A model generated the notes under the pieces. The model was not told the DNA's origin, ran no database searches, and saw only the letters and a program-made list of their open reading frames with translations. Positions 20,265-54,793 of a DNA stretch of 64,000 nt are shown in pieces (the first letter of the stretch is position 1; each line of letters starts with the position of its first letter). The stretch covers positions 20,218 to 84,217 of the forward strand of contig NZ_JAKCMI010000007.1 in assembly GCF_021412585.1 (NCBI RefSeq), read 5' to 3'. This stretch comes from Halomonas alkalisoli. Lineage in GTDB: Bacteria; Pseudomonadota; Gammaproteobacteria; Pseudomonadales; Halomonadaceae. The position numbers and the translations under genes were made by a program.

Positions 20265-20816
20265 TTAGTGTCCGGCGCCGATGGGCAGGTCGGGACAGCT
20301 CTGCTCGGGCTCGCGGGGCAGCGTCAGCCCCTGGCCGTTCTCGCCTTCGGGGGCGTTGAGGAAGGTGGCTACCACCACGGCGACCTCGTCCTCGCTGGGG
20401 TTGAAGGAGCTGTGGATGTTGTCGAAGCCGGGGTCGATGAACAGCTCGCCGGCCCGGTAGGGGCGCTCGACGCAGTCGTCGGCATAGACGTAGACCAGCT
20501 CGCCCTGGCGAATGGTGGCGATCACGGGGCCGGGATGGCTGTGCCAGGGGAAGGCGGCCCCCGGCTGGACGGTGATCTCGGCCATGGCCACCCGTCCGGG
20601 TTCGGGTACCTCCAGGACCTGGCGGTCGCGGCCCTCGGTGGCGAGGGTGATCTGGATACTCACCTCGTCGATGATCGCGCTGCGCTGGGTCAGCTCCTGC
20701 ACGGCGATGGGCGGCGGGTCGTCGCCGGCGGCCAGCGGCGGGACGGCCAGTGCCAGGGCGCCGACGGTCAGCGCGGCGAGGGGCAGGGTCAGGGGAGGGA
20801 GGGCGTGGCGTTTCAT
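20265..20816 (-). CDS. secreted cupin-domain protein, 183 aa
   Basis: Has an N-terminal signal peptide (LTLPLAALTVGALALAVPPLAAG) and a single cupin barrel with the metal-ligand motif PWHSHPGPVIATIRQGE and a second motif around YRAGELFIDPGFDNIHSSFN. Exported small cupins often sense or store a small molecule, but no specific role is visible. It lies immediately downstream of the first FAD oxidase (34 bp) and is probably co-transcribed with it, so it may act in the same pathway. Confidence 0.75.
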   Translation of the reverse strand: MKRHALPPLTLPLAALTVGALALAVPPLAAGDDPPPIAVQELTQRSAIIDEVSIQITLATEGRDRQVLEVPEPGRVAMAEITVQPGAAFPWHSHPGPVIATIRQGELVYVYADDCVERPYRAGELFIDPGFDNIHSSFNPSEDEVAVVVATFLNAPEGENGQGLTLPREPEQSCPDLPIGAGH

Positions 20817-20849
20817 GGCGGTTCTCCTTCGTCTCGTCGGACGTGGCGA

Positions 20850-22247
20850 TCACGCCGGATCGGCCGGCGGGATGTTGTGGTTGTGGCGGAACAGGTTGTG
20901 GGGGTCGTACCGCGCCTTGATGCGGGCCAGGCGGGAGTAGTTCTCGCCATAGGTGGCACGGACCCGGTCGTGGCCCTCGTCCATCATGAAGTTCACGTAG
21001 GCGCCGCCGGCCGAGCTCGGGTGCAGTGCCTCCCAGTAGCGCACCGCCCAGTCGCGGATGCGGTCGGCATTGGCCGGGTCGGGATCGACGCCCACCATCA
21101 CCGCGTTCCAGGTGGCGTTCCGGAAGCGGAAGGCGGTCTCGTCGCTACCCACCCGGTGCGCGGCCCCGTCGATGGGGTAGAGGTGCATGGTGGAGAGCGG
21201 AGTGGGCACCTCGGCGAAGCGCTCATGGACGGCGATCGCCTCGTCGGTGATCTCGGTGAAGAAGTCGCCTCGCCAGTAGGAGTGCAGCCCCGGCGGATAG
21301 AGCGGATCGAAGACCGACTGCAGGGCCGGGAAGGGCACCTCGTGGATGCCGTCCAGCAGTGGCTTGCCGAAGGCCCGTACCGGGGCCAGGGTGCCCTCGG
21401 CCGCCTCGGGGTCGCCGCCGTAGACCCAGACGATGCCGCAGATGTGTCGGCCGTGCAGGCCCTCCGGGAAGGGCGGCGCCGGCGGGACGGTACCGACCAT
21501 GAAGAAGCCGTTGAGCGTCTCCGGTGCCGCGGGCATGAACTCCCGGAACCAGCGCAGCACCTCGCCGGTGTCGGCCAGGTCGTAGAGGACCGGGCCCGCC
21601 ATGACGTTGCGCACCGGATGGCAGCGAAAACGGAAGGCGGTGACCACCCCGAAGTTGCCGCCGCCGCCGCGCAGGGCCCAGTAGAGGTCCGGGTGCGACT
21701 CGGCGCTGGCGGTGACGAAGCTGCCGTCGGCCAACACCACGTCCGCGGCCAGCAGGTTGTCGATGGTCAGGCCGTACTGGCGGGTGAGGTATCCGCTGCC
21801 GCCACCCAGGCTGAGGCCGCCGACGCCGCTGGTGGAGATGATGCCGAAGGGGGTGGCGAGCCCGAAGGGGTGGGTCGCGTGATCGACGTCGCCCAGGGTG
21901 CAGCCGCCCTCCACCAGGACGCTGCCCTCGGTGGGCTCGACCCGCACGCCGCGCATGGCCGAGAGATCGATCACCAGGCCGCCGTCGCAGATGGCCTGGC
22001 CGCTGGCGCTGTGGCCGCCGCCGCGCACGGCGAGCGGCAGGCCGTGCTCGCTCGCCGTGCGCACCGCCGCCATCACGTCGGCGACGTCGACACAGCGGGC
22101 GATGGCGCCGGGCTGGCGGTCGATCATGCCGTTCCACACGGCGCGTGCCGCGTCGTAGCCCTCCTGCCCGGGGCGCAGCAGCCTGCCGCGCATCGCGCCC
22201 TGCAGGGCCTCGAGGGCGGCCTGGGGCGGTTCAAGGTGGTTGTCCAT
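20850..22247 (-). CDS. FAD-linked oxidase, BBE-like (PCMH fold), 465 aa
   Basis: Flavoprotein oxidase of the berberine-bridge-enzyme type. The FAD-binding PCMH domain shows LAVRGGGHSASGQAICDGG, where the conserved His is the usual site of covalent FAD attachment, then GGGSGYLTRQYGLTIDNL and GGGGNFGVVTAFRF. The C-terminal BBE motif ends YVNFM...YDPHNLFRHNHNIPP. The start at 22247 gives a normal N-terminus. The protein is a paralogue of the next gene upstream, and the two encode products of identical length. Substrates in this family range from sugars to alkaloids, so none is assigned. Confidence 0.85.
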   Translation of the reverse strand: MDNHLEPPQAALEALQGAMRGRLLRPGQEGYDAARAVWNGMIDRQPGAIARCVDVADVMAAVRTASEHGLPLAVRGGGHSASGQAICDGGLVIDLSAMRGVRVEPTEGSVLVEGGCTLGDVDHATHPFGLATPFGIISTSGVGGLSLGGGSGYLTRQYGLTIDNLLAADVVLADGSFVTASAESHPDLYWALRGGGGNFGVVTAFRFRCHPVRNVMAGPVLYDLADTGEVLRWFREFMPAAPETLNGFFMVGTVPPAPPFPEGLHGRHICGIVWVYGGDPEAAEGTLAPVRAFGKPLLDGIHEVPFPALQSVFDPLYPPGLHSYWRGDFFTEITDEAIAVHERFAEVPTPLSTMHLYPIDGAAHRVGSDETAFRFRNATWNAVMVGVDPDPANADRIRDWAVRYWEALHPSSAGGAYVNFMMDEGHDRVRATYGENYSRLARIKARYDPHNLFRHNHNIPPADPA

Positions 22248-22388
22248 GGGAGTGCCTCCTGATCTCGGTGTGTGACACCCCGAGCATGGACCGCCCGGCG
22301 TTTGCCAGGCGTTCGGCAAGCGTTCGCGAAGGAGAGACGCCAGCGGCGGCGGGCGCCGGGCGGTGCCCGGGAGCCCCGCCGGACGCCC

Positions 22389-23786
22389 TCATGCTGGTGT
22401 GATGTTCGAGTTGAAGCGAAACAGGTTCTGCGGATCGCAGGATGCTTTTAGTGCCTGCAACCTTGCGTACTTCTGTCCGAAGGTGGCCCTGGTCTCCTCA
22501 TCCTGGTTCTCGAGGAAGCCCGGGTAGTTGAGGTAGAGGCCGTCGCCGTACCCGAAACGTGCGAAGTCGTCCACCGCGTTGCGGGACCAGGCAATGTTGC
22601 TTTCGTCATCGGCCCGATCGCTCCAGATCGACTCGGCCGCGAGCATGTACTCGGCGCCACGGCCGCCGTAGGCCGTGGCGTTCTCGTCGACCCGTCGAAT
22701 CGCGCCGCCCAGATGCCAGATCACCAGCGCCGTCAGCGGTGAGGGGCGACGCTCGGCGTAGTCGACGAGCATGTCGATGCCGGCGTCGCCGAGTGCGGCC
22801 GCTGTCAGCGGGCGGCCCTTCCAGTAGTAAAGCCCGCCGGCCGGGAAGTTCGCATCCAGCAGCGATTGAATGTCCACCCAGCGCATCGTGCCGCTCAGGT
22901 CGAAAAGCGGCGCCGCAACCTGGCGGAGGGGGGCCATCGCTGCCTCGCCTGCCTCGGGGGCTCCAAGGGACACCCCGAGGAAGGCGATGGCGGGCTTGCC
23001 GCGGGCGTCGGGGACGGGGAAGGCCGGGTCGTCCGGCACCGTGATCGAGGTGACGAGCGTAGAGACCTCATCGGGGGCGTGCTGCGTGAAGTCGCGGTAC
23101 GCCTCGTAACACTTCCGGCGGTCGTCGGCCGGATAGCCCACGAAGGTGAAGGCGACCTCGGGACCCACCGGATGGAGCCTGAACTCGAAGGTGGTCACCA
23201 CGCCGAAGTTGCCGCCACCGCCGCGCAAGCCCCAGAGCAGCTCCGGATTATGGGTCTCGCTGGTGTAGACCACCTCGCCGTTGCCGGTGACGACCTCGGC
23301 ACCGATCAGGTTGTCGCAGGTGAGGCCGTGCTTGCGTCGCAGCCAGCCGAGCCCGCCGCTGAGGCAGAGCCCCGCGATACCGGTCTTCGATACCAGGCCG
23401 GTCGGGGTGGCCAGTCCATGGACCTGGGTCTCCCGATCGACATCCTGCAGCAGGGCCCCGCCCTGGACGCGGGCAACGCGCGCGTTCGCGTCCACGATGA
23501 CCGTGCGCATGAGCGACAGGTCGATCATCAGGCTATTGTCCCCGACCGCCGTGCCAGCGACGTTGTGGCCGCCACCGCGGACCGAGATCGGCAGGTCCTG
23601 CTTGCGGGCGAAGGCCACCGCCGCGACCACGTCCGCCGTTCCGCGACAGCGCGCGATAAGCGCCGGCCGGCGATCGATCATGCCGTTCCAGACCTGGCGT
23701 ACCTCATCGAAGGCCGGGTCATCGGGACCCAGGAGGTTGCCTCCAAGGGTCATTTTCAGGGCTTCGGTGCTTGCATCAGTGATCAT
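22389..23786 (-). CDS. FAD-linked oxidase, BBE-like, 465 aa (paralogue of neighbour)
   Basis: Same fold and motifs as the 20850-22247 product: ISVRGGGHNVAGTAVGDNS with the FAD-linking His, LCLSGGLGWLRRKHGLTCDNL, and the C-terminal YLNYPGFLEN...CDPQNLFRFNSNI. ATG 23786 is preferred over ATG 23801 because GGGGGAGAG lies just in front of it. It is the first gene of the run FAD oxidase - FAD oxidase - cupin and is divergent from the GlxA-type regulator. A TCGG-N6-CCGA motif lies 45 bp upstream. Confidence 0.85.
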   Translation of the reverse strand: MITDASTEALKMTLGGNLLGPDDPAFDEVRQVWNGMIDRRPALIARCRGTADVVAAVAFARKQDLPISVRGGGHNVAGTAVGDNSLMIDLSLMRTVIVDANARVARVQGGALLQDVDRETQVHGLATPTGLVSKTGIAGLCLSGGLGWLRRKHGLTCDNLIGAEVVTGNGEVVYTSETHNPELLWGLRGGGGNFGVVTTFEFRLHPVGPEVAFTFVGYPADDRRKCYEAYRDFTQHAPDEVSTLVTSITVPDDPAFPVPDARGKPAIAFLGVSLGAPEAGEAAMAPLRQVAAPLFDLSGTMRWVDIQSLLDANFPAGGLYYWKGRPLTAAALGDAGIDMLVDYAERRPSPLTALVIWHLGGAIRRVDENATAYGGRGAEYMLAAESIWSDRADDESNIAWSRNAVDDFARFGYGDGLYLNYPGFLENQDEETRATFGQKYARLQALKASCDPQNLFRFNSNITPA

Positions 23787-23830
23787 CGTTCTCTCCCCCA
23801 TGATGTCGCAATCCGTCTTTCTCGTGTCGA

Positions 23831-23844
23831 TCGGTCGAATCCGA
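23831..23844. promoter_or_regulatory. TCGG-N6-CCGA motif in the FAD oxidase / glxA-type divergent promoter
   Basis: TCGGTCGAATCCGA, an inverted repeat with a 6-bp centre, is embedded in a ~30-bp stretch shared with the BTAD regulator promoter at 28294. It is a candidate operator for one of the regulators in this locus. Confidence 0.4.
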
Positions 23845-23935
23845 CAGACTGCTGGCAGTTTGCTCGCGAGCGGGCTTGCGGCGCAGAGCGGGGGGCGCCA
23901 AATTTAGGTTAGATTCCCGTCAAGCAGGGGGAGCC

Positions 23936-24955
23936 ATGCATGATGTGACGGTCGTTCTGGTCGAGGGGGGAATGCCGTCCACGGCGGTCGCGCCATTGGA
24001 GATCTTCGGGACGGCGGGCGTGCTGTGGAATTTCATGTGCGAGCGGCGCGCCGAGCCGCGGTTTCGGGTGCGCACGGTGTCCAAGGATGGCCGGCCCGTG
24101 CGTACGGGCGTCTCCCTGCTCCTGCAGCCGGATTGCGGAATCGAGGCGATCGAGTCCACGGATCTGATCCTGGTCGCTGCGGTGGGTGCCGACCTGGAGG
24201 CGGCTTTTCCCCTTCATGCCGCCCTCTATCCATGGCTGCGGGAGTGGCATGAGCGCGGTGCCACCATCGCCGGTGTCTGTGCCGGCGTGGCGTTGCTGGC
24301 GGAGGCCGGGATACTCGATGACCGGCCGGCCACCACCCACTGGGCGGTCGTCGATGCCTGTCGCCGGCGCTATCCCCGTGTCCACTGGCAGCCCGAGCGC
24401 GTCATCACCGAGTCCGGCAATGTACTCTGCAGCGGCGGCGTCTACGCGGCGGTGGACCTGAGTCTGTACCTGATCGAGAAGCTCTGCGGTCACAAGCTGG
24501 CCATGGAGACGGCACGGGCGCTGGTGCTGGAGACTCCGCGTACCTGGCAGATCGGCTACGGGGCCGAGCCACCGGAGTATGCCCACGAGGACCAGCGCAT
24601 CCAGAAAGCGCAGGAGTGGCTGTTCCGTCATTTCACCGATATCGCCTCGATGGAGCAGTTGGCCCGGAATGTCGGCATGAGCGAGCGTACCTTCGAGAGG
24701 CGATTCAAGCGCGCGACCGGCGAGACCCCCAGGCATTATCTGCACCGGGTGCGCGTCAATGCGGCGCGGCACCTGCTGGAGAATGAGCAGCAATCGGTAC
24801 AGGAGGTGAGCAGTGCGGTGGGATATGACGACGTGAGTCACTTCCGTCGCCTGTTCAAGCGTCACACGGGCATGACCCCGCAGGCATATCGGGAGAACTT
24901 CGGCGCCTTCGTCTCCGGCAACGTCGCCCGGGTCGGGCGTACGCCGCATCACTAG
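23936..24955 (+). CDS. GlxA-family transcriptional regulator (DJ-1/PfpI domain plus AraC HTH), 339 aa
   Basis: The N-terminal DJ-1/PfpI-like amidase domain contains the nucleophile-elbow region AGVCAGVALLAEAG (cysteine retained) and THW. The C-terminal AraC/XylS DNA-binding domain has two HTHs: SMEQLARNVGMSERTFERRFKRATG and VQEVSSAVGYDDVSHFRRLFKRHTGMTP. Start ATG 23936 (MHDVTVVLVEGG) gives the canonical beginning and has a GGGGGAG ribosome site. Being divergent from the FAD oxidase genes, it is their most likely regulator. Confidence 0.88.
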   Translation: MHDVTVVLVEGGMPSTAVAPLEIFGTAGVLWNFMCERRAEPRFRVRTVSKDGRPVRTGVSLLLQPDCGIEAIESTDLILVAAVGADLEAAFPLHAALYPWLREWHERGATIAGVCAGVALLAEAGILDDRPATTHWAVVDACRRRYPRVHWQPERVITESGNVLCSGGVYAAVDLSLYLIEKLCGHKLAMETARALVLETPRTWQIGYGAEPPEYAHEDQRIQKAQEWLFRHFTDIASMEQLARNVGMSERTFERRFKRATGETPRHYLHRVRVNAARHLLENEQQSVQEVSSAVGYDDVSHFRRLFKRHTGMTPQAYRENFGAFVSGNVARVGRTPHH

Positions 24956-25057
24956 CGAGGACCCCGGGGCGTTGCAGGTGTAGGCGACGCCCTGGGCCAC
25001 CAGGGGCGTGGCGCCCTCGGCCAGGGCGTCTGGATCGGCCATGATCCGGCGGAGGGC

Positions 25058-28192
<3,135 letters not shown>

Positions 28193-28293
28193 GACGCGCC
28201 CCCGTCGCCGATGTACCGGTCCCGGCGGGCTCGCCGGGCCGGATGAGGTGCCCTCGACCAGCAGTATAGTGGCCAGCAAATCTCTCGCGACGA

Positions 28294-28332: not shown

Positions 28333-29625
28333 TCAGCTCGGCAGGGTAACTCTTCTGGTGCTTCTAGCCAGCCAGCCTGCCATGTGGTGGCTGAGTTCGC
28401 GGGCATCGTCGTCGGCGCCGTGGATGGCGCCCGACTTGCGTCGACGCATGAAGGGCAGGCCCATGGCGTAGAGGCCTGGCGCCACCACGCCACCGTCGTG
28501 CCGCAGGCGCCCGCGGGCGTCGAATACCGGCATGTCGAGCCAGCTGAAGTCGGGTCGAAACCCGGTGGCCCACAGCACCGTGCGGATCTCGCCGCCGGCC
28601 AGGTCGAGCCCGAGGCAGGGCCGCTGCGGTACCCGCGTGGAAGGCAGGTGCTCCGGGGCGGGCAGGGCATCGTGCCAGCCGTGGGCAAGGGCCCAGGCAT
28701 TCAGGTTGTCCAGCAGCCGGGCGAGCTTGAGGTCTGCCGCCGCGGCGTGCATGGCAAGCGAACCCGAGAACTGCAGCCGGGTGCCGGCGATGCCTGCCAG
28801 GCGCCCCACCAGGCGTACGCCGCGCTGGCTCAGGGCGTTGAGGTCCAGGTCGCGGGGTTCGGCGCTGCCCAGCAGTTGCGGAGAGGGCTGGCGTCGGGCG
28901 CGGGCCAGGTCCTCCACTTCGTCGAAGCGCTGGTCGAGCATCCCGGCGTGCTCCAGCCACCACTGGATGTCGCGGCCACGGTAGCGCCGGGGCAGGCGCA
29001 GGTGCTGCCCCACGGCAAGCGTCACGGCACGGCCGCTGCGCTGGAGCTCGTCGGCCAGCTGCACGCCGGTGGCCGAGGCGCCCACCACCAGCACGCCGCC
29101 CGGCGGCAACTGCTCCGGGCGACGATACCCATGGGGCGTCAGGCTTTCCACCCAGGGTGGCAGCGCCGCGGCCATGGCGGGCACGACGGGAAGCTGGCAG
29201 GCGCCGGTGGCGATCACCACCGTCCGGCAGCGCCAGTCGCCCCGGTTCGTCACCACCCGGTAGCCGCCCTCCGCCGGCCGTACGCAGATCACCTCGTTGC
29301 CGGTATGCACCGGGGCCGCAAGGCCCCGGGCATAGCCATCGAGCAAGGCGATCAGCTCCGTCATGCTCATGAAGCCTTCCGGCTCCGGTCCGCCGTAGGC
29401 CTGCCCGGGCAGCCGACACTGCCAGTTGGGGGTGAGCAGGCGAAGCGAGTCCCAGCGTTCGCTGCGCCAGGCGTTGGCCACCTCGCCGCGCTCCAGGATC
29501 ACGTGGTCGATGCCGCGCCGCGCCAGGTGGTGGCTCATGGCGAGCCCGGCGTGTCCCGCGCCGATGACCACGGTGGTCACGGCGCGGGCCTGGCGGTGCA
29601 GCGGGCGTGAGTGCCCCGCGGTCAT
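28333..29625 (-). CDS. flavin-containing monooxygenase / CzcO-like NAD(P)-FAD oxidoreductase, 430 aa
   Basis: Two Rossmann signatures are visible: the FAD site VVIGAGHAGLAMSHHLARRG and the NAD(P) site VVGASATGVQLADEL, plus the ATGFRPD motif near the C-terminus, as in group-B monooxygenases. It lacks the Baeyer-Villiger fingerprint FxGxxxHxxxWP, so the reaction is probably not a Baeyer-Villiger one. The ATG at 29625 overlaps the OsmC stop (ATGA), so both are translated from one mRNA. Upstream in the same strand run are a DUF4242 protein and a BTAD regulator. Confidence 0.85.
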   Translation of the reverse strand: MTAGHSRPLHRQARAVTTVVIGAGHAGLAMSHHLARRGIDHVILERGEVANAWRSERWDSLRLLTPNWQCRLPGQAYGGPEPEGFMSMTELIALLDGYARGLAAPVHTGNEVICVRPAEGGYRVVTNRGDWRCRTVVIATGACQLPVVPAMAAALPPWVESLTPHGYRRPEQLPPGGVLVVGASATGVQLADELQRSGRAVTLAVGQHLRLPRRYRGRDIQWWLEHAGMLDQRFDEVEDLARARRQPSPQLLGSAEPRDLDLNALSQRGVRLVGRLAGIAGTRLQFSGSLAMHAAAADLKLARLLDNLNAWALAHGWHDALPAPEHLPSTRVPQRPCLGLDLAGGEIRTVLWATGFRPDFSWLDMPVFDARGRLRHDGGVVAPGLYAMGLPFMRRRKSGAIHGADDDARELSHHMAGWLARSTRRVTLPS

Positions 29626-30288: not shown

Positions 30289-30840
30289 TCAGGGTTGCGG
30301 CGTGGAATCCGCCGCTGGTGTGACGCGCTGGAAGGCCCAGGTGCGCGTCACCGGCATGCCGGCCTGACGCTGGGCCAGGCGTACCGATTCGGCATCCGGG
30401 GCGTGGTAGAGGCAGCACATGCGCTGCCGGTCGAGGGAGAAGAAAGTGCGCAGGAAGCGCACCTGATGATTGTGCAGGCACGCTGCCCCGGCATCTTCCA
30501 GGGCCTGGATCGCCTCGAGGGTCACCGGGGCGGCGAAGTGGCGCTCCACCATGACGCTGGCGTTGGCCAGGTCCGCGGCTTTCAGGCCGGGGGCATCGTA
30601 TACCCGGCCGCCCCACAGCGAGCTGTCGTCGGCCCCGGCCTGGCGCAGGCCGATGCGTGCCGATTCCGTGTCGGGCGCCACGAAATGGCAGACCAGACGG
30701 CGTCCGTCCCGTGCCAGGAGGCTCTCCTGCCAGTGGATTCGATGCAGGTCGAAACAGGGCTGGGCGGCAAGTGTCAGTGAACGCACCAGCTGCGACCCAA
30801 GCGGTCGATCGAAGTCGCGCTCCAGGAAGACGTCGATCAT
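30289..30840 (-). CDS. tandem DUF4242 (SCO4226-like) protein, 183 aa
   Basis: Two ferredoxin-like DUF4242 modules: residues 1-82 (ending VCHFVAPDTESARIGLRQAG) and 93-175 (CCLYHAPDAESVRLAQRQAG MPVTRTW). The APD-x-E-S-x-R motif is the family hallmark. The characterised relative SCO4226 is a small nickel-binding protein; metal binding here is unproven. The ATG at 30840 overlaps the stop of the BTAD regulator, so the regulator and this protein are made together. The same two-module arrangement forms the N-terminus of the monooxygenase fusion at 52607-54793. Confidence 0.8.
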   Translation of the reverse strand: MIDVFLERDFDRPLGSQLVRSLTLAAQPCFDLHRIHWQESLLARDGRRLVCHFVAPDTESARIGLRQAGADDSSLWGGRVYDAPGLKAADLANASVMVERHFAAPVTLEAIQALEDAGAACLHNHQVRFLRTFFSLDRQRMCCLYHAPDAESVRLAQRQAGMPVTRTWAFQRVTPAADSTPQP

Positions 30841-33272: not shown

Positions 33273-34760
33273 ATGCCCCGCTACGCCAGCATACTGGAAA
33301 CCATAGGACGCACCCCGCTTGTGCGATTGGCCCGTCTCGCGCCGCCGGACGTCAACGTGCATGTGAAGGTGGAGGCCTTCAACCCCATGGGGTCGGTCAA
33401 GGACCGCATGGCCTTGGCGGTGATCGAGGCCGCCGAGCGCAGCGGCGCCTTGCGCCCGGGCCAGACGGTGATCGAGGCCACCAGCGGCAATACCGGCATC
33501 GGCCTGGCCATGGTGTGCGCACGCAAGGGCTACCCGCTGGTGGTGACCATGGCCGAGAGCTTCAGCCTCGAGCGCCGACGCTTGCTGCGCTTCCTGGGCG
33601 CGCGGGTGGTGCTGACGCCGGCCTCCGAGAAGGGCAGCGGCATGCTGGCCAAGGCGATCGAACTGGCCGAGACCCACGGCTACTTCCTGTGCCGCCAGTT
33701 CGAGAACGAGGCCAATGCCGAGGTGCACAGCCGCACCACGGCGCGGGAGATTCTCGACGACATGCAGGGTGAGCCGATCCATGCCTGGGTGACCGGCTTC
33801 GGCACCGGCGGCACCCTCAAGGGCGTCTCCCGGGTACTCAAGGCAGCCGATCCGAGGACCCGCGTGGTGGTCGCCGAGCCGGACAACGCCCCGCTGCTGG
33901 GCAGCGGCGAGGCGCAGCCACAAGGCAAGAGCCACCCGCGTTTTCGCCCGCACCTGATGCAGGGCTGGAGCCCCGATTTCATCTCGGCGCTGACCCGGCA
34001 GGCGGTGGCCGCCGGCATGGTCGACGAGGTGATGCCGGTGGCGGGGGAGGACGCGCTGCGCCTGGCCCGCGAGCTGGCCCGCAAGGAGGGCATCTTTGTC
34101 GGCATTTCCGCCGGTGCGACCCTGGCCGCAGCCTTGCAGGTGGCCCGGCGGGCGCCGGCCGGCAGCCATGTGGTCTGCATGCTGCCCGACACCGGCGAAC
34201 GCTACCAGTCCACGCCCCTGTTCGAGGGCATCGAGGACGAGATGAACGAGGAGGAGCTGGCGCTGTCGCGCTCCACGCCCGGTTGTCGCTTCGATACGCC
34301 TGCGGCTGCGCCGGCTCCCCGGCCGGCCGCCACGCCCGTGGCACAAGATGCCACAAGCGATGTTGAGGCCGAGCGTCGGCTCGACGACTACCTGGCCCAG
34401 GCGCCGGTGGTCATGTTCGCCCTGGCCTGGTGCGAGTTCTGCTGGGCCGCGCGCAAGCTGTTCGACCACCTGGGCGTGGAGTTCTTGAGCGTGGAGCTGG
34501 ATGCCCCGGCCTGCCAGGCCGATGACATGGGCGTGCGCCTGCGTCCGGTGCTGGCACGGCGCACCGGGGCGCCCACCATTCCGCAGATCTTCATCGGCGG
34601 CGAGCCGCTAGGCGGCTGCGGCGAGTTGTTCGAGGCCTGGCGCGACGGCAGCCTGGGCGAGCGGCTCAACGCCTGCGGTATCGCCTACGATGCCGAGGCC
34701 GAGATCGACCCCGAGCGCCTGCTGCCGGCCTGGCTGCATCCACGCTCCGCTACGGCCTGA
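33273..34760 (+). CDS. cysteine synthase - glutaredoxin fusion, 495 aa
   Basis: Residues 1-~320 are a PLP-dependent cysteine synthase/cystathionine beta-synthase fold: the PLP lysine is in GSVKDRM (K43), the phosphate/substrate loop is TSGNTG (70-75), and GTGGTL and SAGAT are present. After a Pro/Ala-rich linker, residues ~370-480 form a glutaredoxin-like domain with a CEFC active site (C387, C390) and the GSH-binding PTIPQIFIGGEPLGGCGEL block. The fusion suggests that the sulfur product or enzyme is kept reduced in situ. Ribosome site GAGGAG lies before ATG 33273. Followed after 14 bp by an AhpD-like gene. Confidence 0.88.
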   Translation: MPRYASILETIGRTPLVRLARLAPPDVNVHVKVEAFNPMGSVKDRMALAVIEAAERSGALRPGQTVIEATSGNTGIGLAMVCARKGYPLVVTMAESFSLERRRLLRFLGARVVLTPASEKGSGMLAKAIELAETHGYFLCRQFENEANAEVHSRTTAREILDDMQGEPIHAWVTGFGTGGTLKGVSRVLKAADPRTRVVVAEPDNAPLLGSGEAQPQGKSHPRFRPHLMQGWSPDFISALTRQAVAAGMVDEVMPVAGEDALRLARELARKEGIFVGISAGATLAAALQVARRAPAGSHVVCMLPDTGERYQSTPLFEGIEDEMNEEELALSRSTPGCRFDTPAAAPAPRPAATPVAQDATSDVEAERRLDDYLAQAPVVMFALAWCEFCWAARKLFDHLGVEFLSVELDAPACQADDMGVRLRPVLARRTGAPTIPQIFIGGEPLGGCGELFEAWRDGSLGERLNACGIAYDAEAEIDPERLLPAWLHPRSATA

Positions 34761-34774
34761 CACAGGAGAAACCC

Positions 34775-35365
34775 ATGAGCTATATCGAAACGATCCCCCC
34801 GGAGCTGGCCGAGGACGAGGTCAAGGCGATGTACCAGCGCCAGGAGGCCCACTTCGGGTTCTTGCCCAACTATGCCCGCGTGTTCTGCCATCGCCCCGAG
34901 GTCATGAAGTGCTGGGCGGCGCTGATCGCGACCATCCGTCGGCCCATGGAGCCGCGCCGGTATGAGCTGGTGACGCTCGCCGCCGCCCGTGCCCTGGGCA
35001 ACAGCTACTGCTCGCTGGCGCACGCCAAGGTCCTGTCGGGGCTACTGGGCATGGAAGCGACCCAGGCGATGGTGGCGGGCGAGGCGGGGCCGCTCAGCGA
35101 GGCGGAACGTGGGATGATGGCCTTCGCCGCCAAGGTGGCTTGCCGCGCCCAGGAGGTCAGCGCCGAGGATATCGAAGCGCTGCGGGCTCACGGCTTCGCC
35201 GACGACGAGATCTTCGACATCGTTGCCGTGGTGGCGGGGCGCGCCTTCTTCACCCGTATCCTCGATGGGCTGGGTGCCGAGCCCGATGCCGCCTTCCGCG
35301 AGCTGCCGCCCGATCTGATAGGACCACTCAGCGTGGGCAGGCCAATAGCACTTGACGAAGCGTAG
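34775..35365 (+). CDS. peroxidase-related / carboxymuconolactone decarboxylase (AhpD-like) protein, 196 aa
   Basis: All-alpha AhpD/CMD fold. The active-site region reads NSYCSLAHAKVLSG: one cysteine and the following histidine are kept, but the usual CxxC is reduced to a single Cys. The rest (TLAAARALGNSYC, AFAAKVA) fits the peroxidase-related subfamily. Co-transcribed with the cysteine synthase-glutaredoxin fusion, which supports a thiol-redox role. Confidence 0.82.
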   Translation: MSYIETIPPELAEDEVKAMYQRQEAHFGFLPNYARVFCHRPEVMKCWAALIATIRRPMEPRRYELVTLAAARALGNSYCSLAHAKVLSGLLGMEATQAMVAGEAGPLSEAERGMMAFAAKVACRAQEVSAEDIEALRAHGFADDEIFDIVAVVAGRAFFTRILDGLGAEPDAAFRELPPDLIGPLSVGRPIALDEA

Positions 35366-48164: not shown

Positions 48165-49291
48165 ATGCAGGCAGTAGTGCAGGAAAAGGGACGGGGTTTT
48201 TCTGGCATGAGCGCTGCTTCTGGCACGACCCGGGGCCCATCGGCGTCTTTTCGTCCCGGGGGGAGTATCTTCAACCTCAGCCGGCCTCGGAGAGCCCCGA
48301 GAGCAAGCGCCGGCTGAAGAACCTGCTCGAGGTGTCGGGCCTGATCGATGAGCTCGAGGTGCGCAAGCCGCCGGCGGCTTCCCGGGAGGATCTGTTGCGC
48401 TTTCATACCGCACGCTACCTCGACGAGCTGGAGGGCGGCGACCAGGCCCGGGGCGGCGATGCCGGCGAAGCCGCCCCCTACATGCCGGGCAGCCTGGCGG
48501 CGGCGCAGCACTCGGCCGGCCTGGCCATTGCCGCGGTGGAGGCGGTGGCGACCGGTGAGCTGAAGAATGCCTATGCGCTGTGTCGCCCTCCGGGGCATCA
48601 CGCCGAGGCGGACCGCGGGCGCGGCTTCTGTCTGCTGGGTAATATTCCGGTGGCGGTCATGCGGGCCCGCGCCCTGGGGCAGGTGCAGCGCGTGGCGATA
48701 CTCGACTGGGACGTGCACCACGGCAACGGGCAGCAGGCAGCCTTCTACGACGATCCGGACGTTCTCACGATATCGATCCATCAGGCTGGCAACTATCCGC
48801 TCGACACCGGCTTCTTCGAGGAGCTGGGGGAGGGGGCAGGGCACGGCGCCAACCTCAACCTGCCGATGCCGCCGGGTTCCGGTATCGGCGCCTACCGCTA
48901 TGCCATGCAGGAGCTGGTGCTGCCCGCCATCGGCGGTTTCGCCCCGGACCTGATCGTGGTGGCCTGTGGCTTTGACGCCTGCGGCAAGGACCCGCTGGGC
49001 AAGATGCTGCTCAACAGCTCGGCGTTCGCGGCCATGACGCAGCAGGTCTGTGCCCTTGCCACCCGCATCAGCGAGAACCGGCTGGTGATGATCCACGAAG
49101 GGGGCTATTCGGAAGGCTACGCGCCGCTATGCGGCCATGCCGTGATCCAGGCACTCGCGGGAAGCCGGATCTCCGTCTCCGACCCGCAGAACGACGAGAT
49201 CGCTGCCTGGGGCTACCAGTCCCTGCAGCCACATCAGCGAGCGCTGATCGACAGCTGGAGGGAAGGCTGGATGAAGGCGGCACCACTATGA
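48161..49291 (+). CDS. histone deacetylase-family amidohydrolase, second copy, 376 aa
   Basis: A second zinc deacetylase of a different subtype from the first: FFWHERCFWHDPG start, RPPGHHAEADRG, LDWDVHHGNGQQ, CGFDACGKDPLGKM and HEGGYSEGY, all catalytic residues intact. Similar to the class II-like bacterial HDACs. Overlaps the genes on both sides by 4 bp (ATGA), showing it belongs to the operon. Two distinct deacetylases in one operon suggest two acetylated substrates or steps. Confidence 0.87.
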   Translation: MNAGSSAGKGTGFFWHERCFWHDPGPIGVFSSRGEYLQPQPASESPESKRRLKNLLEVSGLIDELEVRKPPAASREDLLRFHTARYLDELEGGDQARGGDAGEAAPYMPGSLAAAQHSAGLAIAAVEAVATGELKNAYALCRPPGHHAEADRGRGFCLLGNIPVAVMRARALGQVQRVAILDWDVHHGNGQQAAFYDDPDVLTISIHQAGNYPLDTGFFEELGEGAGHGANLNLPMPPGSGIGAYRYAMQELVLPAIGGFAPDLIVVACGFDACGKDPLGKMLLNSSAFAAMTQQVCALATRISENRLVMIHEGGYSEGYAPLCGHAVIQALAGSRISVSDPQNDEIAAWGYQSLQPHQRALIDSWREGWMKAAPL

Positions 49292-50256
49292 CCCCCCTAT
49301 ACGACCGTGACGGCTGGATCTGGCACGACGGCGAGTGGCTGCCCTGGCGCGATGCCCGCACCCATATGCTGACCCATACCCTGCACTACGGCATGGGCTG
49401 CTTCGAAGGCGTGCGTGCCTACCAGGGCCCTGGCGGCACGCATCTGTTCCGCGTCGCCGAGCACACCCGGCGTCTGCTGGACAGCGCCCATGCCCTGGAC
49501 ATGGCGATGCCCTTCACCGACGACGACCTGATCGAGGCGCAGCGACAGTGCCTGACCCGCAACGGCCTGAGCAACGCCTACCTCAAGCCGACGGTCTACT
49601 TCGGCGCCGAGGGGCTGGGGTTGCGGGCCAAGGGGCTGACGGTTCATGTCATGGTGGCGGCCTGGGACCTGGGCGACTACATCTCGGCGGAAGCCGCCGC
49701 CATCGGCCTGCGCGCGCTGACCTCCTCCTGGGCCCGGCATCATGTCAACATCAGCCTCTGCCGCGCCAAGACCAACGGCCACTACGTCAATTCGATGCTG
49801 GCGCTCAATACGGCGGTGAAGGCGGGGTTCGACGAAGCGATCATGCTCGACCCGGAGGGCTATGTCGCCGAGGCCTCGGCGGCCAACGTCTTCCTGCTGC
49901 GCGACGGCGTGCTGCATACGCCCGAGATCACCTCCTGCCTGCAGGGCATCACCCGGGACAGCGTGATCCGGCTGGCCCGTGAGGTGCTGGGCATCGAGGT
50001 GCGCGAGCGTCGCATCACTCGTGACGAACTCTATACCGCCGATGAAGCCTTCGTCACCGGTACCGCCGCCGAGATTCTGCCCCTGCGTGAGCTCGATGGG
50101 CGTCATATCGGCGGCAGGGTCGGCGCGCCGAAGCCGGGCTTGCCGATCGCCAATGACTCCGTGACCGCCCGGCTGCAACGGCTGTACCGGCGTGTCACCC
50201 GCGGTGACCTGGGCGATGACCTGCCGGCCTTTCGCGACTGGCTGACCCAGCCCTGA
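49288..50256 (+). CDS. ilvE: branched-chain amino-acid-type aminotransferase (class IV), 322 aa
   Basis: PLP fold-type IV transaminase. It shows the family start DGWIWHDGEWLPWRDA, LHYGMGCFEGVRAY, the PLP lysine region CRAKTNGHYVNSMLAL, and EGYVAEASAANVFL with the glutamate that anchors the PLP ring. Sequence is IlvE-like, yet the operon with deacetylases, RidA and OCD suggests a role beyond branched-chain synthesis, possibly on an amino acid released by the deacetylases. Start at 49288 overlaps the upstream stop; a hairpin terminator follows. Confidence 0.88.
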   Translation: MTPLYDRDGWIWHDGEWLPWRDARTHMLTHTLHYGMGCFEGVRAYQGPGGTHLFRVAEHTRRLLDSAHALDMAMPFTDDDLIEAQRQCLTRNGLSNAYLKPTVYFGAEGLGLRAKGLTVHVMVAAWDLGDYISAEAAAIGLRALTSSWARHHVNISLCRAKTNGHYVNSMLALNTAVKAGFDEAIMLDPEGYVAEASAANVFLLRDGVLHTPEITSCLQGITRDSVIRLAREVLGIEVRERRITRDELYTADEAFVTGTAAEILPLRELDGRHIGGRVGAPKPGLPIANDSVTARLQRLYRRVTRGDLGDDLPAFRDWLTQP

Positions 50257-50258
50257 GC

Positions 50259-50285
50259 GGGGCGTCAGGGTTCGCCTGACGCCCC
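50259..50285 (+). terminator. terminator after the aminotransferase operon
   Basis: 11-bp perfect stem ggggcgtcagg / cctgacgcccc with a 5-nt loop, beginning 3 bp after the stop. It lacks a strong U-run. Confidence 0.65.
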
Positions 50286-50347
50286 GGGGCGATTCCATTC
50301 AGTGTGTAACGTGCTACCTTGCGACTACCTGAACAAGATGGACCGAA

Positions 50348-51364
50348 ATGGCACAGGCAATCGTATGGATCGCGCTTTTCACGCTGCTGACGCTGGGCAT
50401 GCTGTGGGGGCTGGCAGCCCTCTGGTTTCGGCTCGAGCTGCCCTCGCCGTGGCGCCAGGTCACCCTGGTGCTATGGGGCCTGCTGACCCTTGGCCTGGTC
50501 GTGCTGGGGGTGGAGGAGTCCGTCACGGTTCGCCGCGACTGGTCGGCGCCGGTTGGACAGCTGCTGCTGCTGGCGGTACTCATGACCTGGTGGTTCCGGC
50601 TGCGGCCTTCCCATGACCGCTCCTGGGCCGACGATGTGGTGCACCTGGCGACCGGTGAGGTCGAGGGCAACCGCCTGACCCTGCATCATGTCCGTAACTT
50701 CGACTGGCGTACCCGCGACGACGCAACGGTTTGCTGGGAGCGTCGTCACTATGACCTCGAGCAGCTGGACTCCGTCGACATGATCGTGTCCAGCTGGGGG
50801 CGTCCCGGGATCGCCCACGTGATGGTCTCCTTCGGCTTCGGAGGCGACGCCTTCGTGGTCTTCTCGGTGGAGGTGCGGCGCCAGCGAGGCGAACGCTTCT
50901 CCGAGCTCGGCGGTTTCTTCCGCCAGTATGAGTTGGCGATCGTGGCCAGCGACGAACGCGATGCCGTGCGCCTGCGCAGCAATGTGCGTGGCGAACAGGT
51001 GCGGCTGTTTCGTATCGCCATGCCGCGGCACACCATGCGCTCGCTGCTGCTCGCCTATGTGGATGAGGCAAATCATCTTCACGAGCATCCTCGTTTCTAC
51101 AATACGATCACCGCCAACTGCAGCACCCTGGTATTTGCCATGGCACGCCGTATCGGTGCCGGGCTGCCGCTGGACTACCGGATACTGGTCACCGACAGGC
51201 TGCCCGATTACGCCTTCGCGATGGGCGGTCTATGGCAAGGCTACTCGCTGACCGAGCTGCAGGATCAGGGGAATATCGTCGAACGGGCGCGTCAGGCCCA
51301 CGACGACCCGGCCTTTTCACGCCGGATTCGCCGCGGTGTGCCGGGTTGGGAAACGCTGCCGTAA
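50348..51364 (+). CDS. DUF4105-domain membrane protein, 338 aa
   Basis: N-terminal hydrophobic segments (IVWIALFTLLTLGMLWGLAALWF, VTLVLWGLLTLGLVVLG, QLLLLAVLMTWWF) anchor a periplasmic domain of about 230 residues. DUF4105 marks are YDLEQLDSVDMIVSSWGRPGIAHVMVSFGFG and ITANCSTLVFAMARRI, where the Cys and a preceding His look like a papain-type site. It may be a periplasmic thiol hydrolase of the cell envelope; function is not known. Confidence 0.82.
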   Translation: MAQAIVWIALFTLLTLGMLWGLAALWFRLELPSPWRQVTLVLWGLLTLGLVVLGVEESVTVRRDWSAPVGQLLLLAVLMTWWFRLRPSHDRSWADDVVHLATGEVEGNRLTLHHVRNFDWRTRDDATVCWERRHYDLEQLDSVDMIVSSWGRPGIAHVMVSFGFGGDAFVVFSVEVRRQRGERFSELGGFFRQYELAIVASDERDAVRLRSNVRGEQVRLFRIAMPRHTMRSLLLAYVDEANHLHEHPRFYNTITANCSTLVFAMARRIGAGLPLDYRILVTDRLPDYAFAMGGLWQGYSLTELQDQGNIVERARQAHDDPAFSRRIRRGVPGWETLP

Positions 51365-52466: not shown

Positions 52467-52606
52467 AGGGGCACGGGGAAAAAGGCAAGTTGAAAGATCG
52501 GCGTATGACGCCTGGAAGGGAACATTCTACGCTATTCGGCGTGCTTGCCTCGCCCGTTGCGACGGAGCAAGATGCTAGACACCCCTCCGCCAGCCACTCT
52601 GCCCGG

Positions 52607-54793
52607 ATGAACGACTTCATTTCGATCCTTCCCCTGTTGGCGCCGCTCGATCGTGACGGTCTGCGGCGGCTGGCGATCCATGCCTGTCTGACACTCCACC
52701 GGGTACGCTGGCGGCGGTGTTACCTGGCGGACGACGGCACGCGCATGCTCTGCTGGTACCAGGCCGCGGACGCGGAGTCCGTACGCCTGGTGCTGCGCCA
52801 GCAGGGTGCGGCCGGAACCCCGGTCTGGCCGGCGGAGGCGACGGGCGCAGCGGTCACGGAGTCGCCCACCGTTGCTAGCGACCGTGTCCTGGTGGAGCTG
52901 TCTCTCGAAGGACTCACTCTCGATGGGCTCGACCCGAGCGACATCGCGCCGACGACGAGTGCGCTCCTTGACGCCCTGGCAACGGCCGGTGCGGTGGTCA
53001 TCCGAACTTTCCTGTCCCGACATCATGGCCGGCTGATCTGCCTGGTGGAGGGCGGTGACACCCATGGCGTTACCCAATGCCTGGGAACCGCCGGCATCGT
53101 TCCGACAAGCGTCTGGCGGTGCACCGAACTCGATCCCGAACCGCCCGGGCTCTTCGCCTCACAGTCCGCGTCGCGGCCACCCCAATCCGCGCCGCGCCAG
53201 GGGGCCGCGGCCCTGGATGCCGTCATCATCGGGGCCGGCCTGTCGGGCATCTGTGCGTTGGAACGACTCAACCGGATGGGGCTGCGCGCGCGGGTGTATG
53301 AGGGCGGCAGCGAGGTGGGGGGCGTCTGGCATTGGAATCGCTATCCCGGCGCGCGGGTCGATTCGGAGATCCATACCTACGGTTTCTCGTTCTCCGATGC
53401 CTTGCTCCGGGATTGGGAGTGGCAGGAACTCTTCCCGACCCAGCCCGATATTGCCCGCTACCTTCGCCACGTGGTCGACCGCTTCGGCCTGCGCCGGCAC
53501 CTACGGCTCGGCACGCCTGTGCTTGCCGCAACGTTTGACGAGGCTGAGGCGCTCTGGCGGATCGAAACCGGCACTGGCGAGCGCGTGACCGCGCGCTACC
53601 TGATCGCTGCGACAGGGACCTTGTCGGTGCCACAGCTGCCTGACTACCCGGGGATGAGCGACTTTTCGGGCGAGAGCTTTCATACCGCGAGATGGCCGGC
53701 CGGCGTGGAACTGGGCGGCAAGCGCGTCGGGGTCATCGGCACCGGCGCCTCGGGGGTGCAGGTGATCCAGACCATCGCGCCTGACGTCGCACACCTGACG
53801 GTATTTCAGCGCACCCCCACCTACTGTATTCCCCAGCGCAACCGGCCGCTGACGGATGCCGACCGCCGCGAGATCCGTCGGGACTGGACACGGATCCTGG
53901 CCACCTGCCGCGAGTCCTACGGCGGGTTCATTCACACCTTCGATCCCCGCTCCGGGCTGGCGGTTTCCGCTGCCGAACGGGAAGCCAAGTTCGAGGAGCT
54001 CTGGCAGAAGGCCGGCTTCGCCTTCTGGTTCGGCAATTTTGCCGACCTGATGATGAGCTTCGAAGTGAATGAGCACGCCTGCGATTTCCTGCGCCGCAAG
54101 ATCCAGGCGCGTATCCACGACCCCGAGACCGCCCGACGGCTGCTACCCCGCCATCCTTTCGGCACGAAGCGCGTGCCGTTGGAGAACGGCTATTACGAAA
54201 CCTACAACCGCGGCAACGTCGCCCTGGTGGATCTGCGGGAGACGCCCATCGAGAGGATTACGCCGGGAGGCATTCGTACCTCGCGGGATGAGCATCCGCT
54301 CGACGTGATCGTCTACGCCACCGGCTTCGATGCCGGTACCGGTTCGTTGAGCCGGATCGATATCCGCGGAGCCGGCGGCCTGTCGCTGGCCGAGAAGTGG
54401 CAGGCGGGGCCGAAGACGTTCCTCGGTCTGCTCGTCAGCGGCTTTCCCAACCTGTTCATCGTCAACGGCCCGCATAATGCCGCGGCACTCTGTAACGCGG
54501 GACGCTGCATCGAGCAGAACGTCGATTGGATCGTGCGTTGCATCGAGCAGATGCGATACCAGGGGGCCACGCGCGTCGTGCCGACCCCTGCCGCCGAGGA
54601 GGAGTGGACCCAGCATGTCCTTGATGTGGCCGACGCGTCCGTGCTGGCGGCGATGAGGGATTCCTGGTTCTTCGGCGCCAACACCCCGGGCAAACCGCGC
54701 GTTGCCACCATCTACGCGGCCGGTGCGCGCGAGTACCGACAACACTGCGAGGCGGTGGCCAACGCCGGTTTCGCGGGCCTGGAGCTGTCCTGA
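52607..54793 (+). CDS. DUF4242 - Baeyer-Villiger monooxygenase fusion, 728 aa
   Basis: Residues 1-75 and 93-172 are two DUF4242-like modules (LHRVRW, DGTRMLCWYQAADAESVRL; RTFLSRHHGRLICLVEGG) aligning well with the free-standing 183-aa protein at 30289-30840. After a Pro/Ser-rich linker, residues ~203-728 form a type I Baeyer-Villiger monooxygenase: FAD site IIGAGLSG, fingerprint FSGESFHTARWP (353-364), NADPH site VIGTGASG (376-383) and ATGFDAG near the end. Oxidises ketones or related carbonyls using NADPH and oxygen. The start at 52607 begins the DUF4242 part; the ribosome site is weak. Confidence 0.87.
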   Translation: MNDFISILPLLAPLDRDGLRRLAIHACLTLHRVRWRRCYLADDGTRMLCWYQAADAESVRLVLRQQGAAGTPVWPAEATGAAVTESPTVASDRVLVELSLEGLTLDGLDPSDIAPTTSALLDALATAGAVVIRTFLSRHHGRLICLVEGGDTHGVTQCLGTAGIVPTSVWRCTELDPEPPGLFASQSASRPPQSAPRQGAAALDAVIIGAGLSGICALERLNRMGLRARVYEGGSEVGGVWHWNRYPGARVDSEIHTYGFSFSDALLRDWEWQELFPTQPDIARYLRHVVDRFGLRRHLRLGTPVLAATFDEAEALWRIETGTGERVTARYLIAATGTLSVPQLPDYPGMSDFSGESFHTARWPAGVELGGKRVGVIGTGASGVQVIQTIAPDVAHLTVFQRTPTYCIPQRNRPLTDADRREIRRDWTRILATCRESYGGFIHTFDPRSGLAVSAAEREAKFEELWQKAGFAFWFGNFADLMMSFEVNEHACDFLRRKIQARIHDPETARRLLPRHPFGTKRVPLENGYYETYNRGNVALVDLRETPIERITPGGIRTSRDEHPLDVIVYATGFDAGTGSLSRIDIRGAGGLSLAEKWQAGPKTFLGLLVSGFPNLFIVNGPHNAAALCNAGRCIEQNVDWIVRCIEQMRYQGATRVVPTPAAEEEWTQHVLDVADASVLAAMRDSWFFGANTPGKPRVATIYAAGAREYRQHCEAVANAGFAGLELS

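Follow-up and report, generated by a model that had tools for sequence, protein, structure and literature searches.

A tandem DUF4242 pair fused to a Baeyer-Villiger monooxygenase-like enzyme, and encoded beside a flavoprotein, in Halomonas alkalisoli

The fusion protein and its relatives

Two genes for tandem DUF4242 (PF14026) modules lie 22 kb apart in a 64,000-nucleotide stretch of the Halomonas alkalisoli genome (the window; contig C5:20218-84217 of the 4.87-Mb genome G000). In one, the modules are fused to a flavin enzyme of the Baeyer-Villiger monooxygenase (BVMO) type, and in the other they form a free protein within a cassette that also encodes a flavoprotein. The fusion is a 728-residue protein whose open reading frame occupies 52607-54793 on the forward strand; the frame extends back to a TTG at 52490, and the Met at 52607 is the start in most aligned homologues. 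Its two parts are:

52607-53140, forward strand: tandem DUF4242 (PF14026) pair at the N-terminus (residues 1-178 of the fusion), with C27 and C49 in module 1 and W170 in module 2
53204-54793, forward strand: type I BVMO-like part of the fusion, with FSGESFHTARWP at residue 353, GGVWHWNRYPGARVD at residue 238 and GTKR at residue 519

The original prediction, which read the N-terminus as two DUF4242 modules alignable with the free 183-residue protein at 30289-30840 and the remainder as an intact BVMO, is borne out on each of these points. Pfam places PF14026 at residues 31-68 of the fusion (40.8 bits, gathering cut-off 28.5) and flavin/NAD domains from residue 204 on. Pfam reports one DUF4242 stretch, not two; the second module (about residues 90-176) emerged from a BLASTP comparison with the free protein (31% identity, E 8e-22), and AlphaFold2 models residues 2-80 and 91-175 with the same strand-helix-strand-strand-helix-strand order. 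The mean predicted local distance difference test score (pLDDT) of this model is 74, with values of about 83-90 over most of both modules and dips near residues 20-30, 81-90 and 101-120; the linker falls below 50, so that the interdomain arrangement is unreliable.

Residues 195-727 align with phenylacetone monooxygenase (PAMO; 1w4x) in a search of the PDB (E ~1e-158), spanning residues 9-541 of the 542 of that enzyme, which is too short to carry a pair of barrels at its N-terminus as the fusion does. The motif FSGESFHTARWP agrees with FxGxxxHTxxW[PD], which we take to be the fingerprint of type I BVMOs, two Rossmann motifs are present (GAGLSG at 209 and GTGASG at 378), and R522, within GTKR, is aligned with R337 of PAMO, presumably its active-site Arg. 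Judged by these motifs, all of them intact, the flavin part is a type I BVMO-like enzyme.

The pairing is not confined to one genome. A search with residues 1-190 of the fusion took proteins of 0.55-1.75 times the query length (about 400-1270 aa), a range in which free DUF4242 proteins could not appear, and the flavin part is present in 34/34 of the proteins retrieved, as read from precomputed Pfam matches. Together with 88 new proteins among the best 120 of 7994 BVMO relatives, these make up a set of 122, of which 89 carry the DUF4242 N-terminus according to a profile built from the fusions; the relatives were ranked by likeness to the window enzyme, so 89/122 is no frequency among BVMOs. Several shorter members of the 89 begin inside or past module 1, apparently through miscalled starts. 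In 86/89 fused and 31/33 unfused proteins the BVMO fingerprint is intact.

A tree of the flavin part was built from 118 of the 122 relatives and the window protein (119 rows), four having been dropped for want of a recognisable FAD motif start or because the flavin part was too short. A branch with an SH-aLRT value of 99 (quick method) sets off the 88 fused rows, among them the window protein, and the sole unfused row within that clade, P0157 (546 aa), may have lost its DUF4242 part or have had its start miscalled. Named sources of the fused rows include Halomonas and metagenome-assembled genomes of Pseudorhodoplanes, Pseudomonadales, Gammaproteobacteria, Haliea and Sandaracinaceae; four named records carrying the same fusion are from Halomonas. 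Among 117 relatives of the window genome the fusion was found in five, and in 5/5 the gene sits between groEL and a SpoU-methylase gene, the product of which we take to be TrmJ-like. On these comparisons the fusion is real, old and conserved, and in the tree the fused proteins fall together in one BVMO lineage, with the one exception named.

A class IV aminotransferase gene (Pfam) followed by a gene for an Lnb_N domain protein occupies 49129-51364 of the window; a homologue of the Lnb_N protein is near the fusion in 3/5 fusion genomes.

The free tandem protein and its cassette

The free tandem DUF4242 protein is encoded on the reverse strand, within the following set of genes:

28333-29625, reverse strand: TIGR04046-like FAD/NAD(P) flavoprotein, 430 aa
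29622-30182, reverse strand: OsmC-like protein, 186 aa (PF02566), with C97 and S169
30289-30840, reverse strand: free tandem DUF4242 protein, 183 aa, with C29, C51, C121, C143, W76 and W168
30837-about 33137, reverse strand: BTAD/TPR-type regulator, start uncertain, with weak Trans_reg_C and TPR Pfam matches
33273-34760, forward strand: cysteine synthase-glutaredoxin fusion, 495 aa (TIGR01139, 356.9 bits, cut-off 350.95; PF00462), divergent from the regulator
34775-35365, forward strand: CMD/AhpD-like peroxidase-related protein (PF02627; TIGR01926, 79.3 bits, just below the cut-off of 81.8)

The free protein contains two PF14026 stretches (78.7 bits in total, Pfam cut-off 28.5), and its AlphaFold2 model has a mean pLDDT of 94.2. 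By predicted structure, the PF14026 modules of the window adopt the ferredoxin-like fold of SCO4226, the nickel-binding PF14026 protein of Streptomyces coelicolor (4oi3/4oi6).

The order regulator, tandem DUF4242, OsmC-like protein and flavoprotein was observed in 27/27 fetched tandem loci of the same genus, where the OsmC match of L058 comes in two overlapping pieces and the regulator match of L060 is partial. Beyond the family of the window genome, the same quartet is present in 3/3 loci from three families of the same order (G930, G1048 and G913; DUF4242 identity 42-49%), giving 30/30 fetched tandem loci in four families. Two further loci of the genus, L051 and L063, carry a single DUF4242 module, without the quartet. 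Overlaps of 4 nt join the regulator stop to the DUF4242 start and the OsmC stop to the flavoprotein start, and the gap between the DUF4242 and OsmC genes is 106 nt. An orthologue of the flavoprotein (at least 66% identity) and the tandem DUF4242 protein co-occur in the same 28 genomes of the 117 relatives; given that the genes form one operon, this reflects a unit inherited together and not repeated independent evidence. The OsmC-like gene of L058 (genome G032) may be broken, or its sequence may contain an error.

The original prediction had placed the free protein in a run with OsmC and a flavin monooxygenase (FMO). The run stands and is extended by the regulator, which is homologous to proteins with stronger BTAD/AAA matches; the monooxygenase label does not hold, as the BVMO motif and FxGxxxH are both absent from the 28333-29625 flavoprotein, and FxGxxxH was seen in 1/31 rows of its alignment. 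The flavoprotein matches TIGR04046 (MSMEG_0569 family) over nearly the full model (346.9 bits, E 1.5e-103), yet below the curated cut-off of 498.35, and its homologue in L139 scores 358.4 bits; in the search of the 117 relatives it is 36-43% identical to 11 other matches. We take TIGR04046 to be NitH of the nit1C cyanide cluster; among the cassette proteins scanned, no nitrilase family match was found.

OsmC/Ohr peroxidases have two conserved cysteines. The OsmC-like protein lacks this pair: C97 is invariant (31/31), and S169, also invariant (31/31), occupies what we take to be the place of the second cysteine in canonical OsmC, a site placed by eye without a canonical OsmC alignment. The cysteine synthase-glutaredoxin fusion is encoded in 27/30 tandem loci (missing in L047, L060 and L064) and a CMD/AhpD-like match was found in 30/30 (partial in L045, at the contig end in L138), both counts coming from tandem loci alone. 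The cassette is thus larger than the quartet and divergent, with extra genes pointing to thiol or peroxide chemistry, a mechanism read from gene content. The cysteine synthase-glutaredoxin fusion might convert S-sulfocysteine to cysteine within one protein; the part of thioredoxins and glutaredoxins in this step is reportedly the topic of a study on E. coli.

Beyond the cassette, the stretch at 20265-28279 encodes in series a cupin, a pair of FAD oxidases of the BBE type (BagG/FevA2-like, below cut-off), a protein of 377 aa that Pfam leaves unmatched and an AAA-BTAD regulator. Near other DUF4242 genes lie relatives of the BBE oxidases (L110 and L118), of the 377-aa protein (L096) and of the regulator (eight loci). 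The window genome has a third PF14026 gene, at C10:8926-9144; this gene (locus L072, C10:8905-12404) lies about 2 kb from a BBE-type FAD oxidase that is 64% identical to the one at 20850-22319.

Descent, conserved residues and reach of the flavoenzyme link

In a tree of 80 modules, computed from 85 columns and with a program warning of long branches, the first modules of both protein types (13 rows from fusions, 11 from free proteins) cluster at 96/91, which sets them apart from the 11 rows of free module 2 and from every one of the 32 single-domain modules. Thirty of these 32 form a group of their own (97/97), the exceptions being L051 and L063. Module 2 of the fusions stands alone on long branches; because it does not join free module 2, the tree suggests, rather than establishes, one tandem ancestor of the fusion and the free protein. 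The 22-kb spacing, which the original prediction had taken as one arrangement mirroring the other, was rejected as a functional link: a distance of about 26-75 kb separates groEL, the neighbour of the fusion, from the cassette in 7/7 of the single-contig genomes examined from the genus, all of them lacking the fusion.

Within the fusions C27 (82/82), E57 and R60 (89/89 each) and W170 (89/90) are conserved, and only module 1 keeps the cysteine pair. SCO4226 is described as binding four nickel ions per dimer, with a Ni-1 site conserved among Streptomyces (PMC4186839). In the structural alignment of the model (residues 2-82) on the SCO4226 chain (residues 2-82; 81 aligned), the Ni-1 ligands Asp43, Ser46 and His76 are replaced by A43, G46 and W76. 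These positions hold Ala in 28 and Ser in 3, Gly in 31 and Trp in 31 of the 31 free-protein rows; in the fusions they hold Ala in 72/85, Gly in 79/85 and Trp in 65/90 (His in 2/90). The model for the SCO4226 nickel-binding protein, NF033706, gives the free protein 17.5 bits against a cut-off of 125 and the fusion no row at E 0.01. Nickel handling of the Ni-1 type, one form of the metal handling offered in the original prediction, was rejected on the absence of the Ni-1 ligands from the free protein and from most fusions. The proteins described here further differ from SCO4226 in having two modules per chain and an extra first cysteine, and in lying beside or being fused to a flavoenzyme.

As for other DUF4242 modules, the profile recovered one at 32 of 49 loci, so that less similar members are under-sampled in the counts that follow. 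His at position 76 was found in 0/32, which means that the Ni-1 site is no family trait and that the tandem branch bearing the Trp and cysteine is not alone in lacking His76. Trp at position 76 and the first cysteine at the aligned position were each found in 2/32, the same two modules (L051 and L063); a cysteine falls within four columns in L122, L127 and L129, and several further modules have one more upstream in the same helix region. The first cysteine is accordingly a soft mark of the branch.

PF14026 is present in 43/398 genomes of the phylum. At 46 other PF14026 loci sampled in the phylum, outside the window genome and genome G006 and some of them cut by contig ends, a BVMO/FMO homologue (27-29% identity) was found within about 6 kb in 3/46, against 0/37 control loci, which were fewer in number and hand-placed at round-number positions within the same genome set. 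This difference is too small to claim, and a general link between DUF4242 and flavin monooxygenases, as originally proposed, was rejected. The narrower part of that proposal stands: as far as the sample goes, partnership with a flavoenzyme, seen in the fusion and in the cassette, is likely a trait of the Trp/Cys-marked tandem branch. AAA/BTAD homologues are near 8/46 of the other DUF4242 genes by tblastn (9/46 by BLASTP on called open reading frames) and 2/37 controls, and the regulator link of DUF4242 may be wider than the flavoenzyme link. The tandem-type (A2) profile matched 2/369 genomes of the class and 9/398 of the phylum, the matches being in the window genome, in one of its genus and otherwise to single modules; the fusion N-terminus as query matched 5/341 genomes of the order, yielding the three other families.

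Function of the tandem DUF4242 pair

N-terminal extensions on BVMOs and FMOs are already known; a SCO4226-like pair as the extension appears new within the literature searched. JsFMO (8acs) likewise carries a small domain at its N-terminus, whose role is unclear and which lies away from the active site (PMC10028610); unlike the fusion it is a type II FMO and its N-terminal domain has a SnoaL-like fold. The 8acs entry matches the flavin part of the fusion alone, and weakly (E 3.3e-9, residues 204-410). HAPMO is described as a type I BVMO with an N-terminal extension, DUF4242 going unmentioned in the text consulted; no row named HAPMO is among the 60 PDB matches listed for the fusion. Tandem alpha/beta-barrel proteins (PenE, 9kdp; anthrone oxidase-like, 5f9p; ovorubin, 9uaj) and sulfur oxygenase reductase are 4-12% identical to the modules here. 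In literature whose coverage left out most subscription journals, neither an N-terminal SCO4226-like pair on a BVMO nor a cassette of OsmC, flavoprotein and BTAD regulator was found.

Our preferred interpretation, to which we give a probability of roughly 0.4, is that the Trp/Cys-marked DUF4242 pair is a dedicated partner of flavoenzymes: folded as a closed double barrel, it would bind their substrate or product, on which its cysteines would act. The double-barrel fold is predicted from the AlphaFold2 models and the structural alignment; we infer that the barrel would dock on the flavoenzyme and bind a small molecule on which the cysteines do chemistry. A reactive compound, electrophilic or peroxidic, would be made or used by the flavoenzyme, held in the DUF4242 barrel and then handed to the thiol proteins of the cassette. 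In the fusion the same module would be tethered to the BVMO-type enzyme, with the cysteine pair kept in module 1 alone. The thiol element of this proposal is owed to the company the free protein keeps in the cassette, namely the cysteine synthase-glutaredoxin fusion, the one-cysteine OsmC-like protein and the AhpD-like protein.

The pair on the BVMO might instead be a structural extension only, stabilising or dimerising the enzyme, as has been proposed for other N-terminally extended monooxygenases. Such extensions occur on HAPMO, where structural integrity is the role given, and on JsFMO (PMC10028610), and the strong divergence of fusion module 2 fits a scaffold; the retention of C27, E57, R60 and W170 does not, and the same module type standing free beside a flavoprotein in 30/30 loci would be left unexplained, so that we regard this account as unlikely, if worth keeping in mind. 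A role as the ligand-sensing subunit of BTAD-type regulators, with the flavoenzyme link secondary and arising through the genes these regulators control, draws on the 4-nt overlap of the two genes, on the adjacent regulator in 30/30 tandem loci and on the excess of AAA/BTAD homologues near other DUF4242 genes over controls. At the fusion locus, from the SpoU-methylase gene to groEL in five genomes, no homologue of either window regulator was found, and fusion to a BVMO would be needless for a sensor; we doubt that sensing is the primary role.

To our knowledge, neither BVMOs nor TIGR04046-like flavoproteins need a metal, which counts against a view of the modules as binding or storing nickel or another metal, like SCO4226, and supplying or shielding the flavoenzyme. 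PF14026 membership above the curated cut-off, the nickel ions bound by SCO4226 and the conserved cysteines, which could bind a metal other than nickel, speak for such a role; with the Ni-1 ligands replaced and the NF033706 score far below its cut-off, it is very improbable. Hardly any weight falls on chance, by which a common small fold would have been put to separate, unconnected uses in the fusion and in the operon, with the 22 kb between them a coincidence. The groEL-cassette synteny does explain that distance, and the module tree has few columns and long branches; the grouping of module 1 of both proteins, and the Trp at the His76 position together with the first cysteine in both, a combination lacking at the aligned position in 30/32 other modules, argue against coincidence.

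If the modules are indeed flavoenzyme partners acting through cysteines, they could be described more broadly as a portable thiol module, used free in a cassette that would by itself detoxify a reactive compound, and incorporated a single time into a BVMO lineage, where it would capture substrate or product beside the flavin site; we put this wider account forward as a doubtful extension. The nickel-binding label often given to DUF4242/SCO4226-like proteins goes back to a single Streptomyces protein, and several of the homologue records encountered here carry it. The Trp/Cys-marked branch gives the PF14026 family a concrete test of function and offers the BVMO field a natural extra domain.
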